Of a DNA stretch of 64,000 bases, positions 58,013-63,968 are shown piece after piece. Made by a program: the position numbers and the translations under genes. This stretch comes from an uncultured Pelagibacteraceae bacterium (GTDB lineage: Bacteria > Pseudomonadota > Alphaproteobacteria > Pelagibacterales > Pelagibacteraceae), in NCBI GenBank assembly GCA_902513955.1, contig CABXOW010000003.1, forward strand, positions 1 to 64,000, read 5' to 3'. The first letter of the stretch is position 1, and every line of letters begins with the position of its first letter. The notes under the pieces are model-generated. The model saw only the letters and a list, made by a program, of their open reading frames with translations. It had not been told where the DNA came from and made no database searches.

Positions 58013-58046
58013 GAATTAAATGTTGTTAGGGTCATTAATAATTATA

Positions 58047-59279
58047 ATGAGAAATCTTCAGACTTTTACTTTTTTGCTTGTATTTGTTTTCACCAATTTA
58101 GTTGCTGAAGAAAAAAAGATTAAGTTAAGAGGTATTAGTGATAATGAAACATTTAAACCTATACAGATCTCAATTAGCCCAGATTTATTAAATACTGATA
58201 AAGTAAAAGATTTAAAATCTACCTATGAAGCCGCTAAAGAATTTGCAAATAAAACAGACAAACAGTTAAAAAGTAGAAAAGTAAAAAAATTTAGAAGTGC
58301 AAATGCTGGTGATTCACCAAGTAAAATTTATAATGATTACGCAAAAAGTGTATTTTTTCTTTATAATGAAAAAGCTGAAGCAATAGGCACAGGTTTTTTA
58401 GTAGATTCTTCTGGATTAATTCTTTCCAACTGGCACGTGACAGATAAAACTAAAAAAATGTTTGTTTGGACATTACCTGAAGAAGGAGTAATCGATGCAG
58501 ACAGTTTATTTGCTAAAGAATATTACTTTGGTTCAGTTATAGCTGAAAATAAAAAAGAAGATTTAGCTTTAATTAAAGCAATTGGATTACCTAAAAATAT
58601 AAAGCCAGTAAATCTAGGAACAAATGATGAGGTTAATGTTGGTGATAGCGTTTATGCTATTGGTCACCCAAAAGGTTTGCCATGGAGTTTTTCAGCAGGG
58701 ATGGTTAGTCAAAAAAGAAAAAATTATAAATGGACTTATGAAGATAAGTCAGAACACTCTGCAACAGTTTTACAAATGCAAACACCAATAAGTACGGGGA
58801 ATTCAGGGGGGCCATTATTTTCAGGAAAAGGGAAAGTTGTAGGTGTTAACACTTTATTCCAAGGAGATGGGCAAAATTTAAATTTTGCAGTAGCGGTAGA
58901 TCATGTAAAAAAATTTATTAAAGACAATCCAGTTGTCACCAAAATAAATCCTATTGGAGCTATAATCAAACAAGACTACCCTAATGCCATAACGGAGGAT
59001 TATAATAAAAATGGCACAATTGATACTTGGTATGTAGATAAAAATGGTAATGGTAAATTGGATTTAGGATTTGTTGATGACGATGAAAATGGATTTGTGG
59101 AAGGCACACTAATAGACAAAGATGAAGACGGTGTTTGGGAAATCTTTTTAATTGATACTGATGAAAATGGTAAAGCCGATCAAGCTTATTTAGATAATGA
59201 TGCCGATAAAAAACCTGATGTTCTTGCTCATGATTATAATGAAGACGGTGAGTGGGATAAGTTTGAAGAGCTTTCTTAG
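58047..59279 (+). CDS. Exported trypsin-like serine protease with calcium-loop repeats
   Basis: A 410-residue protein from the ATG at 58047 (MRNLQTFTFLLVFVFTNLVA signal peptide); the frame extends to 58020. The trypsin-like (HtrA-type) domain has the triad His130 (NWHVTDK), Asp172 (EDLALIK) and Ser253 (TGNSGGPLF). No PDZ domain follows. The last 90 residues hold about seven acidic loops (DYNKNGTID, DKNGNGKLD, DTDENGKAD, DYNEDGEWD) like EF-hand or thrombospondin type-3 calcium loops. It converges on the caspase gene with interlocked stops (TTAG), suggesting the two proteases work together. The substrate is unknown. Confidence 0.85.
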   Translation: MRNLQTFTFLLVFVFTNLVAEEKKIKLRGISDNETFKPIQISISPDLLNTDKVKDLKSTYEAAKEFANKTDKQLKSRKVKKFRSANAGDSPSKIYNDYAKSVFFLYNEKAEAIGTGFLVDSSGLILSNWHVTDKTKKMFVWTLPEEGVIDADSLFAKEYYFGSVIAENKKEDLALIKAIGLPKNIKPVNLGTNDEVNVGDSVYAIGHPKGLPWSFSAGMVSQKRKNYKWTYEDKSEHSATVLQMQTPISTGNSGGPLFSGKGKVVGVNTLFQGDGQNLNFAVAVDHVKKFIKDNPVVTKINPIGAIIKQDYPNAITEDYNKNGTIDTWYVDKNGNGKLDLGFVDDDENGFVEGTLIDKDEDGVWEIFLIDTDENGKADQAYLDNDADKKPDVLAHDYNEDGEWDKFEELS

Positions 59280-61444
59280 GATTTAGGAAAAAATAAAAAT
59301 TCTCCACCATCGTGACCTGTTCCATGAATTAAAGAGTGCTCTGGTGTTTGATCTGCATTGTTTTCTACATAATTTCTAACTTCTTGAAATAATTCAATAG
59401 ACCTAATAACTTTATTATTATCTCTAAGCGATTTAATTAGAGGTTCTGCAAAAACTGAATTTTTTGAATTTCCTATTCCATCCACAACTTGTTCATTGCC
59501 ACCTGATGTCATTACTAGTCTAGTCTTTTTTTGTTGGTATCTTTTAATTGAAGTTGCAGTTATTTTTTCAACTGATTTATTTTCACCACTTCCTCTCATT
59601 AAAGAACCTGAGAAACAACTATCAACAATTAATAAAATATGTTTTGCATCTGAGGATCCTATCAAATCTTTGATACTGTTATTGCTTAACCATTTAGAAT
59701 CTTGCGTTGAGCCTGCATCTGTTGGTAACCAATATCCTCTTTTTTGTTTTTTGATTAGTTGTCCATGTCCCGCATAATAAATAAGAATATTGTCACTTTT
59801 TTTTCTTTTTTGTGTGAAATTTATTATTGCATTATGGGTGTCATCTTTATTTTTATCGATCATTAAAGTAGTTTCAAAACCATACTTATCTTTTAAAACT
59901 TTTTCTAAATCCTTAGCATCATTAACTGCATTGTCTAAATCCTCTAATTTTTCATAATCATTATTTCCAATTATTAATGCATAATATTTTTCTTCAGTTG
60001 TATGTTTTGCTAGTGTAGTTTTGCCTTCAGCTTCACCCCCATCTTCCCATAAACCATCGTATATATCACCATTAGCATAAACCATTTTTCCTTGCCCATG
60101 TCTGTATCCATCTTTAAATTGGCCTCTATAAATTCTTCCATCAGCATATTCAGCTGAACCTTGTCCATTTTCATCTCCATCTTTAAATTCACCAATATAT
60201 TTATCACCACTTGAATATATTATTGCTCCTTTTCCGTCTGCAAAATTTTCAATGAAATCTCCCTCATAAACTGTTCCACTTTCATAAATATATTTTCCTT
60301 TTCCTGTTCGAAACCCTAATTCAAAATCACCTTCATATTTATCACCATCGCTCCAAGTAAAAAAACCATAACCGTGTTCTAAACCATCTTTATACGGTCC
60401 AATATATTTATTACCATTTGCGTAATGATATTCACCTTTATGAAAAGTATTATTTTTCCATTGACCAGTATATTTTTCTCCATCAGACCAAGTAAAAACT
60501 CCATACCCAGATTTATTTCCATCTAGGAAGTTTCCAATATATTTGTTACCTGTTTCAGATGTGTAGGTACCTTTGCCATCAAATTCACCATTTTGATATT
60601 GTCCCTCATGTTTTTCTCCATCTATATAATAAGTAGTCCCTTTACCAGATAACTTTCCATCTACAAAATCACCTTCATATCTATCTCCATTTACCCATGT
60701 AAAAGTTCCTTTTCCCGTTCTTATTCCATTTACAAAATCACCTACATATTTATTACCACCACTGTATAGATAAGTCCCTTTGCCATTCAATTCATCATTT
60801 ATAAAATTACCAAATTCTATACTGCCATTATTCCATTCAATTCTACCCTTACCATTTAAATCTCCATCTTTGAATGAACCAATATATTTAGTGCCATTTG
60901 CAAAAATTATTTTGCCTTCTCCATTAAGAATATCTTTTTTATATGTTCCTTCAGAATAATACCCACCTTCACAAGTTACTTTTCCTTCACCATGTAAATC
61001 ATGATCTTTAAAAGTTCCTTCTCTTTTACAACCATTAGCTGAGAGATACGTACCTTTACCATTCAGATAATCATTTTTAACTTCACCCTCAAAATATCCG
61101 CCACTTTCAAAAAAATCTTGTCGACCATATCCATCAGCTTTATTATCTTTAAAACCTCCAAAATATATATCTCCCCAAGCTTCTCTAAGAATTCCTTGAC
61201 CATCAAATGCACCATTTTTCCATTCCCCTTTATATTCAATTCTTGGAAATTTATATTCACCGTAACAATTATTCCATTTTCTATAATCAGTTCCTTTGCA
61301 ATTAGAAAGTGAGCTTTCGATTTTATATTTTTCTGGAATTTCAGAGGTGGCTTTAAAACTTAAAATAAAAATAAGAATAACTAGTGCTGAATACTTAATT
61401 ATTTTTGAGTAATTATTTTGATAAGTTGATAGTTGAAATTTCAT
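59276..61444 (-). CDS. Exported MORN-repeat caspase-like peptidase
   Basis: A 722-residue protein. Residues 1-31 are a signal or anchor helix (ALVILIFILSFKA), so the rest probably faces the periplasm. About 17 MORN repeats of 23 residues (pattern YxGxFxDGxxxGxG) fill residues 68-470. A C14-type caspase domain starts near residue 487 (YALIIGNNDYEKLEDLDNAV), with the dyad His560 (YYAGHG) and Cys610 (IVDSCFSG). MORN repeats bind membranes or proteins, and caspase-like domains cut after acidic or basic residues. The gene overlaps the anti-sigma gene by 32 bases. It is likely regulated by the same sigma circuit. Confidence 0.88.
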   Translation of the reverse strand: MKFQLSTYQNNYSKIIKYSALVILIFILSFKATSEIPEKYKIESSLSNCKGTDYRKWNNCYGEYKFPRIEYKGEWKNGAFDGQGILREAWGDIYFGGFKDNKADGYGRQDFFESGGYFEGEVKNDYLNGKGTYLSANGCKREGTFKDHDLHGEGKVTCEGGYYSEGTYKKDILNGEGKIIFANGTKYIGSFKDGDLNGKGRIEWNNGSIEFGNFINDELNGKGTYLYSGGNKYVGDFVNGIRTGKGTFTWVNGDRYEGDFVDGKLSGKGTTYYIDGEKHEGQYQNGEFDGKGTYTSETGNKYIGNFLDGNKSGYGVFTWSDGEKYTGQWKNNTFHKGEYHYANGNKYIGPYKDGLEHGYGFFTWSDGDKYEGDFELGFRTGKGKYIYESGTVYEGDFIENFADGKGAIIYSSGDKYIGEFKDGDENGQGSAEYADGRIYRGQFKDGYRHGQGKMVYANGDIYDGLWEDGGEAEGKTTLAKHTTEEKYYALIIGNNDYEKLEDLDNAVNDAKDLEKVLKDKYGFETTLMIDKNKDDTHNAIINFTQKRKKSDNILIYYAGHGQLIKKQKRGYWLPTDAGSTQDSKWLSNNSIKDLIGSSDAKHILLIVDSCFSGSLMRGSGENKSVEKITATSIKRYQQKKTRLVMTSGGNEQVVDGIGNSKNSVFAEPLIKSLRDNNKVIRSIELFQEVRNYVENNADQTPEHSLIHGTGHDGGEFLFFPKS

Positions 61445-62168
61445 AGTTATTATTTATTTTACATAAGTCCAAGGAAACATCAGTTCCTTGATCATTGCTA
61501 GATAATTTTAAAGGTTCATTGAATTTAACTTTTTTACAGTCATTTCCATTAGCGTTAAAATTTTCAACCAATATAAATCTTACTTTTTTACCATCATTAT
61601 CCTCAAGTGAAGATTCAAACTCATCATTTAAATTCATATTATCAATTTTAGAATTAATATCGTTTAGAAACTGCTCTTCATCAAAGTATCTATAAAGATT
61701 TGTTACTCTTGTAGATAAATCTTCATCTGTATTTGGCATACCTCTTAGCTTAAGTTCTTTTGGTGTATCAATTTTTTGTGTCGCCATCATTACAGTTTTT
61801 TTATTATCACCATCAAGTGAGGCAACAAATGTATTTGTATAAAATCCTCCAACAAAAAACATTGCAAACGCTGCAGCAACACCTGCATATTGAATTTTAA
61901 ATAATCCAAAAAAGTTAAAAGAACCTGTTTCTTTAGCTAAAGGTTTCTTCCAGCTTTTAATAATATTAGCTTTATCTTGTAAGTTTTGAGGTAGCGGTTT
62001 TGATTTAATTTCATTACCTAATTTAAATAATAGGTCCCCAGTTTCTTGAAAATTATTATATAATTCTTTGAGTTTTGGATCAGCCTCTATAGCTTTTTTA
62101 ACTTCTTCATGCTCTTCGATGGGTAAAGTACCATCTGCGTATTGCATTATTTTAGTTTCATCTATCAT
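61413..62168 (-). CDS. Membrane anti-sigma factor-like protein
   Basis: A 251-residue protein. The N-terminus (MIDETKIMQYADGTLPIEEHEEVKKAIEADPKL-type helices) resembles the sigma-binding domain of RsiW/RskA-type anti-sigma factors, but the zinc HxxxCxxC motif is absent. One membrane helix lies at residues 92-111 (IQYAGVAAAFAMFFVGGFY), followed by a periplasmic domain of about 140 residues with two cysteines (NDCKKVKF, LDLCKI). Its ATG overlaps the sigma gene stop by one base, the usual sigma/anti-sigma coupling. The signal that releases the sigma factor is unknown. Confidence 0.8.
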   Translation of the reverse strand: MIDETKIMQYADGTLPIEEHEEVKKAIEADPKLKELYNNFQETGDLLFKLGNEIKSKPLPQNLQDKANIIKSWKKPLAKETGSFNFFGLFKIQYAGVAAAFAMFFVGGFYTNTFVASLDGDNKKTVMMATQKIDTPKELKLRGMPNTDEDLSTRVTNLYRYFDEEQFLNDINSKIDNMNLNDEFESSLEDNDGKKVRFILVENFNANGNDCKKVKFNEPLKLSSNDQGTDVSLDLCKINNNYEISTINLSK

Positions 62169-62656
62169 TATGCAAGCAATCCTTTTAATTCTTTTCTACA
62201 ATTTGATAATCTACTTAAAACAGTTCCTAAACTCTTAACTTGAGTTACTTCTTGCATTTCTTGCATACTCATACCTTCCGAAGCTAGCATTAAAACCTCT
62301 TGGCATTTTTCACCCATAGTTTTAATAACAGATAGAACTTTGCTACATTCATCACTCAAACTAATTTTATCTGAAATATCAGCTTGTTTTTCATCTACAA
62401 TTTGTAAATCATTTCCCTCATCATCTGTCATAGAAGTCATTTTTTGATTTTTTCTAATTCCATCAATAAATAGACCTTTCATTTTTAATACAGCTATTGC
62501 TTTTATATTTGGATGATCCATATACTTTTCTTTATTAGAAATTAAATATTCCATAGCACCATTCACTAAATCGTAAGGGTCGCCTTTGCCCCTCATTATT
62601 CCCAGTGCTATCACTACTAAGCTTTTGATAAAATTCTCGTCCAATTTCTCTGTCAT
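62168..62656 (-). CDS. ECF-like RNA polymerase sigma factor
   Basis: A 162-residue sigma factor. Region 2 is seen in LVVIALGIMRGKGDPYDLVNGAMEYLI and AIAVLKMKGLFIDGIRKNQK, and region 4 in CSKVLSVIKTMGEKCQEVLMLASEGMSMQEMQEVTQVKSLGTVLSRLSNCRKEL. Regions 1 and 3 are absent, as in ECF factors. It is coupled to the anti-sigma gene and probably drives the three TGAATA-N15-CGTTA promoters nearby. Its ribosome-binding site is weak; a short frame (62723-62535) that abuts the upstream peptide gene overlaps its start and may couple translation. Confidence 0.82.
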   Translation of the reverse strand: MTEKLDENFIKSLVVIALGIMRGKGDPYDLVNGAMEYLISNKEKYMDHPNIKAIAVLKMKGLFIDGIRKNQKMTSMTDDEGNDLQIVDEKQADISDKISLSDECSKVLSVIKTMGEKCQEVLMLASEGMSMQEMQEVTQVKSLGTVLSRLSNCRKELKGLLA

Positions 62657-62723
62657 ATCTTAAGTCTTTAACTATATCTAAAGTATCAAACTTAAAACAA
62701 TTATAGTGTTTATTCAAATCCAT

Positions 62724-62921
62724 TTATATCCATTTAGAGTTAGGTGTTTGCCCACATCTGTAAGTGGGATTAGTAAAACTATTAATTAATTGTAATTCTT
62801 TATGATTATTGCAATCATCAAAAGTATAACCAGGAAGATCACTAGCAGCATTTGCTCGACCAGCTACTCCAATTACTTTTAGAATAATTAGAATAGCTAT
62901 TATCATAAACTGAGGTTTCAT
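62724..62921 (-). CDS. Small exported protein, 65 residues
   Basis: A 65-residue protein with a signal peptide (MKPQFMIIAILIILKVIGVAGRANA) and a 40-residue mature part with two cysteines (DDCNNHKE, YRCGQTP), which could form a disulfide. The ATG overlaps the stop of the 46-residue gene (TAATG). It lies between the small-peptide genes and the sigma gene in one operon. No family is recognised. Confidence 0.7.
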   Translation of the reverse strand: MKPQFMIIAILIILKVIGVAGRANAASDLPGYTFDDCNNHKELQLINSFTNPTYRCGQTPNSKWI

Positions 62922-63061
62922 TAAAAATTTTCCCCTAAAAATGCTTTATCAATATAAAAATTATAACCAATCAATTCATTTGCAACCATATTCCATTCAC
63001 TAGCTTGTGATGTACTTGAAAGAACTGAAAGTAATCCAATAATTAAAAATATTTTTTTCAT
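62921..63061 (-). CDS. Small exported peptide, 46 residues
   Basis: A 46-residue frame with a clear signal peptide (MKKIFLIIGLLSVLSSTSQA) and a mature peptide of about 26 residues beginning SEWNMVANELIGYNF. A TAAGGAT-type ribosome-binding site precedes the ATG. It starts 11 bases after the 69-residue gene and its stop overlaps the next ATG, so it sits inside the operon. A signalling or protease-substrate peptide is possible but not shown. Confidence 0.65.
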   Translation of the reverse strand: MKKIFLIIGLLSVLSSTSQASEWNMVANELIGYNFYIDKAFLGENF

Positions 63062-63282: not shown

Positions 63283-63355
63283 TTTGTTTCCTTTTGTTAG
63301 TTGTTTCTTTGTGTTCATATTTAGTTAACGTTTGAAGTCAGATTTTATTCAAAAA
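63268..63355. repeat. Duplicated promoter-leader block, copy 1
   Basis: About 88 bases (promoter, leader, ribosome-binding site and first codons MKKAI) are repeated at 63562-63649 with two substitutions near 63324-63325. The duplication suggests that a regulated cassette was copied in front of a second peptide gene. Confidence 0.9.
63326..63351 (-). promoter_or_regulatory. ECF-like promoter of the sigma operon
   Basis: On the minus strand TGAATA (63351-63346) and CGTTA (63330-63326) are 15 bases apart. The same motif and spacing occur at 63645-63620 and 63968-63943. CGTT-type -10 elements are usual for ECF sigma factors, and the encoded sigma factor is the likely reader. Confidence 0.7.
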
Positions 63356-63382
63356 AAAAGCCCCAGAGAGGAGGGGCTTTTT
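63355..63382 (-). terminator. Rho-independent terminator
   Basis: A 10-bp stem AAAAAGCCCC / GGGGCTTTTT with an 8-base loop. On the minus strand it is followed by a T9 run, so it ends the 58-residue gene. Its T-run merges directly into the -35 element of the next promoter. Confidence 0.9.
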
Positions 63383-63399
63383 AATTAAAATAGAGCTTA

Positions 63400-63576
63400 T
63401 TAACAGCCACTGAAATTATTGTAGCAAACACCATCCGGGTTAGTTCTGTAGTGAGAACCCACATAAGTACCATTGCTTTTGAAATATCCATTAACTAGCA
63501 CTAGAGCGTTAGCTGCAGTGTTTAAATTAAGACCGATTACTGAAATTAGACTGATCATCATTATTGCTTTTTTCAT
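63400..63576 (-). CDS. Small exported protein with SNGTYV/HYRTNPDG motif, 58 residues
   Basis: A 58-residue protein starting at 63576 with a signal peptide (MKKAIMMISLISVIGLNLNTAANA). The mature part carries VNGYFKSNGTYVGSHYRTNPDG, a short motif seen in many small bacterial and phage proteins of unknown role, and ends with two cysteines (DGVCYNN, FSGC). The start and upstream 75 bases are a near copy of those of the 69-residue gene. It has its own promoter and terminator. Confidence 0.78.
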   Translation of the reverse strand: MKKAIMMISLISVIGLNLNTAANALVLVNGYFKSNGTYVGSHYRTNPDGVCYNNFSGC

Positions 63577-63649
63577 TTTGTTTCCTTTTGTTAGTTGTTT
63601 CTTTGTGTTCATATTTAACTAACGTTTGAAGTCAGATTTTATTCAAAAA
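63562..63649. repeat. Duplicated promoter-leader block, copy 2
   Basis: Second copy of the 63268-63355 block, offset by 294 bases, with the same orientation. It drives the 58-residue secreted protein gene. Confidence 0.9.
63620..63645 (-). promoter_or_regulatory. ECF-like promoter of the 58-residue gene
   Basis: TGAATA-N15-CGTTA on the minus strand, inside a block duplicated from the sigma-operon promoter. The distance from the -10 element to the ATG is the same as in the other copy. Confidence 0.68.
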
Positions 63650-63671
63650 TAAATGAAATATTTTTTAATCC

Positions 63672-63699
63672 AGAAAGGGTAGTAAAAACTACCCTTTCT
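63672..63699 (-). terminator. Hairpin after the YNPF-repeat gene
   Basis: An 11-bp perfect stem AGAAAGGGTAG / CTACCCTTTCT with a 6-base loop lies just downstream of the 71-residue gene. It has no clean T-run on the minus strand, so it may be a weak terminator or an mRNA-end structure. Confidence 0.6.
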
Positions 63700-63709
63700 A
63701 GGTGATTAT

Positions 63710-63925
63710 TTATTTCTCATAATCCCATTTGCCAGTAAATGGATTGTACTCAAGCTTCGAGTCTGATCTCTCATGAGACCAATCTCCATCAAAAGGATTG
63801 TACTTCAAGCTAGAGTCTCTTGGAGCACTTTCCCACTGACCAGTAAAAGGATTATATTTGATATCTGCCATAGTTATATTAGGCAGGAGAACAAATAATG
63901 CGATTATGATAGTTTTTACTTTCAT
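63710..63925 (-). CDS. Small exported protein with three YNPF-W repeats, 71 residues
   Basis: A 71-residue protein with a signal peptide (MKVKTIIIALFVLLPNITMA) and three tandem repeats of about 17 residues: IKYNPFTGQWESA, LKYNPFDGDWSHE and LEYNPFTGKWDYE. Each unit alternates aromatic, proline and glycine residues, like short beta-hairpin binding motifs. A strong AGGAGG ribosome-binding site precedes the ATG. It has an ECF-like promoter of the same type as the sigma operon. The function is unknown. Confidence 0.78.
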   Translation of the reverse strand: MKVKTIIIALFVLLPNITMADIKYNPFTGQWESAPRDSSLKYNPFDGDWSHERSDSKLEYNPFTGKWDYEK

Positions 63926-63942
63926 AATACCTCCTGAAATAT

Positions 63943-63968
63943 TAACGTTTTGATGTTAGGATTATTCA
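63943..63968 (-). promoter_or_regulatory. ECF-like promoter of the YNPF-repeat gene
   Basis: TGAATA-N15-CGTTA on the minus strand with a spacer unlike the duplicated block, so the shared elements are conserved independently. This supports a real sigma-factor recognition motif. Confidence 0.7.

Follow-up and report, generated by a model that had tools for sequence, protein, structure and literature searches.

ECF sigma factors are recognised by a set of hallmarks, namely an AAC −35 element, a CGT −10 element, a co-transcribed anti-sigma factor and autoregulation (PMC8103513). The described systems that come closest to the locus reported here are the pairs of a group 4 ECF sigma factor and a membrane anti-sigma factor, such as RpoE-RseA of E. 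coli and SigW-RsiW of Bacillus, the EcfG general stress response of the Alphaproteobacteria, and caspase-containing conflict systems of prokaryotes. SAR11 has been stated to have only sigma-70 and sigma-32 (PMC13198564), and among the open-licence literature we found no paper describing an ECF sigma factor in this group.

We analysed a stretch of 64,000 nucleotides from an uncultured Pelagibacteraceae bacterium (the window) together with homologous loci from the same family. Our reading, to which we give a probability of roughly 0.86 from sequence comparison, is that TGAATAA-N14-CGT[T/C] is the −35/−10 pair for RNA polymerase carrying an ECF sigma factor encoded nearby, and that it defines a local, likely autoregulated cassette regulon. 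The features of the window that bear on this reading are as follows.

58020-59279, plus strand: exported trypsin/HtrA-like protease with His-Asp-Ser motifs and Asp-rich C-terminal repeats, convergent to the caspase gene
59276-61444, minus strand: signal or anchor segment, 15 MORN repeats and a caspase (C14) domain with intact His-Cys motifs (domain profiles)
61413-62168, minus strand: probable membrane-anchored anti-sigma factor, 251 aa, one predicted transmembrane segment at about residues 90-112 (weak profiles, gene order)
62168-62656, minus strand: ECF sigma factor, 162 aa, sigma-2 and sigma-4 regions (profile matches)
62535-62723, minus strand: 62-aa ORF that shares 122 nt with the sigma gene in a different frame; same length and open in 8 of 8 loci
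62724-62921, minus strand: 65-aa small membrane or exported protein
62921-63061 (L015 6922-7062), minus strand: 46-aa small protein with an N-terminal hydrophobic stretch, conserved in L008, L009 and L013
63073-63318, minus strand: 81-aa membrane protein whose gene opens the sigma operon and has the same leader as the 70-aa gene
63326-63351, minus strand: predicted promoter site 1, core identical to site 2, heading the gene string that runs to the caspase
63355-63382 (L015 7383-7356), minus strand: hairpin resembling an intrinsic terminator, its T-run directly adjoining the −35 of site 1 (pattern scan)
63400-63612, minus strand: exported protein, 70 aa when read from the first ATG as annotated, 81-88% identical in L010, L012 and L013
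63620-63645, minus strand: predicted promoter site 2, TGAATAAAATCTGACTTCAAACGTTA, preceding the 70-aa exported protein
63710-63925, minus strand: 71-aa exported protein in which YNPxxGxW is repeated three times; kept in six homologous loci
63943-63968, minus strand: predicted promoter site 3, TGAATAATCCTAACATCAAAACGTTA, preceding the 71-aa YNPxxGxW-repeat protein

A bipartite element with fixed spacing

The initial annotation had reported TGAATA-N15-CGTTA at three places, each before the gene of a small exported or membrane protein, and had described the spacer of the third as unrelated to the others. All three sites were recovered on the minus strand (63351-63326, 63645-63620 and 63968-63943) against an expectation of 0.09 matches from shuffled sequence with spacers of 14-16, and the window holds no other TGAATA/CGTTA pair with these spacers. 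Each is followed by a short ORF that encodes a hydrophobic stretch of signal-like or transmembrane type, as had been proposed. The spacing also stood, while the element itself is better written as a T-tract followed by TGAATAA-N14-CGT[T/C], usually then A. Three further sites lie just past the window end on the same contig (C3:67188-67163, C3:66910-66885, which ends in CGTTT, and C3:66556-66531), bringing the locus total to six. Because sites 1 and 2 and one copy outside the window have an identical 26-base core and a near-identical common leader, we take these to be duplicates on their sequence; the spacers of the site at 63968, of C3:66556 and of C3:66910 differ from the duplicated core, in agreement with the earlier description of the third site. 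In its orthologues, TGAATAA and CGT are kept in all loci and the spacers have changed.

To define the element we pooled the sites of the window locus and of six homologous Pelagibacteraceae loci (single-cell genomes or MAGs), 33 in all with 26 different cores; some sites within one genome are copies and thus not independent. When spacings of 8-21 were scanned over 88 kb of the seven sigma-bearing loci, all 33 sites fell at 14 and none at 8-13 or 15-21. The invariant portion is TGAATAA-N14-CGT, preceded by the T-run; CGT is conserved across loci, and within the 33-site set it was fixed by the search pattern. The fourth base of CGTT may be C in homologous loci, one of which has CGTC in place of CGTT, and positions in mid-spacer vary freely; immediately 5′ of CGT there is a milder preference for TCAAA. 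Homologous operons keep the motif, and in the intact loci the sites precede the same small exported proteins, with unchanged elements at a fixed distance and changed spacers. This pattern bears on the idea that the element is a neutral repeat or a recombination junction of small-gene cassettes with no regulatory role, for which the repeated and partly identical terminator-promoter-gene units might speak. Neutral repeats would be expected to drift evenly, whereas here the spacers have diverged between loci but TGAATAA and CGT, and the distance between them, have not, and we regard a neutral origin as most improbable.

In its CGT the element has the usual ECF −10, and its −35 is similar to that of ECF promoters, with GAAT (AAT) where a typical one has GAAC (AAC). 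We also considered that the sites are ordinary RpoD promoters (TTGAAT-N17-GTTAAT) copied along with duplicating small genes, the ECF gene being unrelated. Some cores and leaders are indeed plainly copied, a TTGAAT reading is possible at 31 of the 33 sites, and in 14 of 33 the corresponding −10 agrees with TATAAT at four of six positions. However, the key A at position 2 of that −10 is missing in every one of the 33 sites, the C and G of CGT are invariant though they fall outside a sigma-70 −10, and the bases that follow vary (GTCACC, GTCTCT). Moreover, unrelated cassette genes have the same elements with different spacers, and the motif is at background in SAR11 genomes that lack the sigma gene, although RpoD is present in 10 of 10 such genomes tested, each with exactly two RpoD-related genes. 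We reject the RpoD reading on its −10 and consider it unlikely overall.

Dimeric regulators, too, typically have two-part motifs of constant spacing, and the element could in principle be an operator for a DNA-binding regulator rather than a sigma recognition pair. Its half-sites, however, are neither inverted nor direct repeats of each other; it sits 20-44 nt upstream of an ATG associated with a ribosome-binding site, a position that together with the CGT −10 fits a promoter; and the conserved cassette shows no recognised DNA-binding regulator except the sigma factor. An operator thus seems to us very unlikely.

The arrangement around the sites is compact. At three of them a terminator-like hairpin ends right at the −35, with the T-run common to terminator and promoter. 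The Met-Asn-Thr-Asn-Lys-Gln-Leu N termini common to the annotated products more probably represent, to judge from the sequence, a conserved leader with a Shine-Dalgarno sequence; the true start would therefore be Met-Lys-Lys, 44 nt after CGTT, and the 70-aa gene likely begins at this second ATG, after AAAAGGAAAC. The 46-aa protein falls below the hydropathy threshold. What follows the site at C3:66556 is just a hydrophobic ORF of 33 codons at the 3′ end of a second caspase gene (L015 10557-10420 for site and ORF); at L008 1179 the motif site is kept, and no 33-codon ORF was found in the short stretch examined.

Co-occurrence with the sigma gene and scope of the regulon

This sigma factor is encoded in only 2 of 347 Pelagibacteraceae genomes, which hold 5 and 4 exact sites, compared with 0-3 in the other 345. 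The 39 sigma-less genomes with 1-3 exact motifs correspond to the level of a reversed control. Seven sigma-bearing genomes from another collection, which includes one of the two above (G281), hold 6, 1, 5, 0, 3, 5 and 4 exact sites. In five of the seven, the 3-6 sites are all at the sigma locus; a sixth has a single site on a contig end, its locus itself being cut by that end, and the genome with no exact site has CGTC variants at the same promoters. The proposal that this is the regulon motif of the nearby sigma factor thus gains support from computation, both from co-occurrence over the 347 genomes and from the conserved fixed spacing. Because the motif co-occurs with the sigma gene and has an ECF-type −10, the sigma factor is by far the best candidate for its reader, a well-supported assignment at the level of sequence.

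A genome-wide scan suggested by the initial annotation confirmed that hits precede small exported proteins at the sigma locus, but indicated that the regulon is confined there. The 1.2 Mb of the window's genome contain the exact motif at five positions, which all lie within 4 kb at the sigma locus, and forms with one or two mismatches show no genome-wide excess (217 versus 282 in the reversed control). A genome-wide regulon was rejected on this ground. Since the relaxed matches show no excess and the exact sites fall within 4 kb, the regulon appears to be local to one locus, within the limits of pattern searches in a genome that is ∼83% complete, where distant targets could be missed.

Sigma operon, proteases and the cassette

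The ECF-like sigma gene had been placed at 62168; the class assignment held, but 62168 is the 3′ end of a gene that runs 62656-62168. From its profile matches the product is a divergent ECF sigma factor. ECF models match it over its full length (residues ∼11 to 158), with sigma-2 and sigma-4 regions only and a short linker. The NCBIfam match (4e-14) is below the family's own cut-off, and a profile of eight homologues matches SigH/SigR in the PDB at 2.5e-5. Pfam Sigma70_r4_2 was found in five of these eight, while Pfam gave no match for the window's own sigma factor. An AlphaFold model of the sigma factor, built from the eight homologues, places the helices in two blocks at low confidence (pLDDT 54). 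All homologues, L013 and L014 among them, have nearly the same recognition-helix segment, GTV[LM]SRL-xx-CRKELKGL. In those two (L013 6001-6486, L014 4869-5336) the first helix of the region 4 helix-turn-helix is of a different type from that of the other homologues, and looks as if a segment had been exchanged. No relative was found in viral contigs, and a viral origin was rejected.

For the 62-aa ORF, which in L014 overlaps the sigma gene by 113 nt, synonymous shuffling of sigma codons leaves the frame open with a probability of at most 0.0064 per locus. Because substitutions in the overlap track the sigma frame, it seems that the open frame rather than its residues has been kept.

The adjacent 251-aa protein, whose gene overlaps the sigma stop codon in the window, has an anti-sigma-like N terminus and a probable transmembrane segment. 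Against PRK13920 (putative anti-sigmaE) it scores 9.7e-5, which falls far short of the cut-off set for that model. Its profile picks up genes that immediately follow ECF genes in other Alphaproteobacteria, with a best value of 6e-6; comparison with solved structures gave no match. These weak profile matches and the gene order make it a probable membrane-type anti-sigma factor, with an N terminus that would be cytoplasmic.

After the site at 63351, the minus strand carries the genes for the 81-aa, 46-aa, 65-aa and 62-aa products, sigma, anti-sigma and MORN-caspase, with short gaps or overlaps, and a pattern scan found no terminator between site 1 and the sigma gene. Because the motif heads the sigma gene string in the window and in L008, L010, L012, L013 and L014, site 1 most likely also drives the sigma operon, which would give positive autoregulation. 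In L011 no site stands directly before the sigma operon, and a terminator-like hairpin separates it from the nearest upstream site.

A second, divergent caspase gene with a signal or membrane segment lies at C3:64004-66418 (L015 8005-10419), and the catalytic motifs of both caspases and of the HtrA-like protease are intact. The Asp-rich repeats at the C terminus of the latter resemble calcium-binding motifs, and no PDZ domain was recognised. Among the 347 family genomes, 20 encode related caspase domains, in most cases with no gene for the sigma factor.

We infer the following mechanism from the computed motif, spacing, conservation and co-occurrence. RNA polymerase with the ECF sigma factor would read TGAATAA-N14-CGT[T/C] as −35 and −10. 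Several small exported or membrane proteins would each own a copy in the order terminator, promoter, leader and gene, and the last copy would most likely also drive the operon of sigma, anti-sigma and caspase in a positive feedback. By analogy with other ECF systems, the membrane-spanning anti-sigma would hold the sigma factor until an envelope or extracellular signal removes it. Removal might be the work of a protease encoded at the locus; cleavage of the anti-sigma by the caspases or the HtrA-like protease is guessed from the order of the genes. The regulon would be limited to the cassette.

The cassette, which comprises the ECF sigma, the membrane anti-sigma, two exported or membrane caspases, the HtrA-like protease and small exported proteins, occupies ∼10 kb between rpoD and mlaC-mlaA in the genome of the window (window 56801 to L015 11440) and in L010. 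L013 shows the mla flank, and the remaining loci do not reach both flanks. In complete genomes without the sigma gene, the same interval is nearly empty in L048 and L050, and in L047 and L051 it holds other genes, including those for cytosine methyltransferases, an HNH endonuclease and nuclease-helicases. By its gene content the rpoD-mlaC interval is a swap site or insertion hotspot. We further suggest, as a speculation that we think rather doubtful, that the cassette is a horizontally swapped, self-contained ECF module in which a protease would trigger a switch made up of sigma, anti-sigma, two caspases and HtrA, and whose private promoter code would serve no genes but those of its own small secreted proteins. 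It would act from a defence-gene hotspot against attack on the cell surface by phage, predator or rival.

Comparison with known ECF and caspase systems

Like caspase conflict systems (EACC1-associated caspases, PADLOC 'caspase'), the cassette has caspase domain matches and a hotspot in common with restriction-modification genes, but here the caspases have signal or membrane segments and lie next to a sigma/anti-sigma pair of the ECF type. Taken as a whole, the cassette was not recognised as any known defence system.

The EcfG response (GGAAC-N16/17-CGTT) shares with this locus a nearly equal spacing, the CGTT −10 and a small ORF before the sigma gene, and an EcfG/NepR arrangement was considered for the 62-aa ORF. 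In contrast to EcfG, the neighbour is a membrane-type anti-sigma-like gene rather than soluble NepR, the −35 is TGAATAA rather than GGAAC, exact sites occur at the one locus instead of at many with no genome-wide regulon, and the sigma factor scores better against several other ECF families than against EcfG-like ones. The 62-aa ORF has no convincing NepR features and no PhyR-like gene was recognised within the cassette, leaving the arrangement unsupported.

With RpoE-RseA and SigW-RsiW the locus has in common a two-domain sigma with a probable single-transmembrane anti-sigma directly downstream, a GAA-type −35 and CGT-type −10, probable autoregulation, envelope or exported targets, and an adjoining HtrA-like protease. 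It differs from them in its −35 (TGAATAA, where theirs is (T/G)GAAC), in a regulon of one cassette, in its two caspases and in a lineage otherwise without ECF factors. A rare SAR11 sub-population with a third sigma factor shows that a streamlined genome can gain extra regulation as a cassette; the cassette links an ECF switch to bacterial caspases, and its one-locus regulon offers a directly testable sigma-promoter pair. By comparison with these systems, the mechanism is most likely that of a standard ECF switch with feedback, and what is new is its lineage, its closed regulon and the company of caspases.
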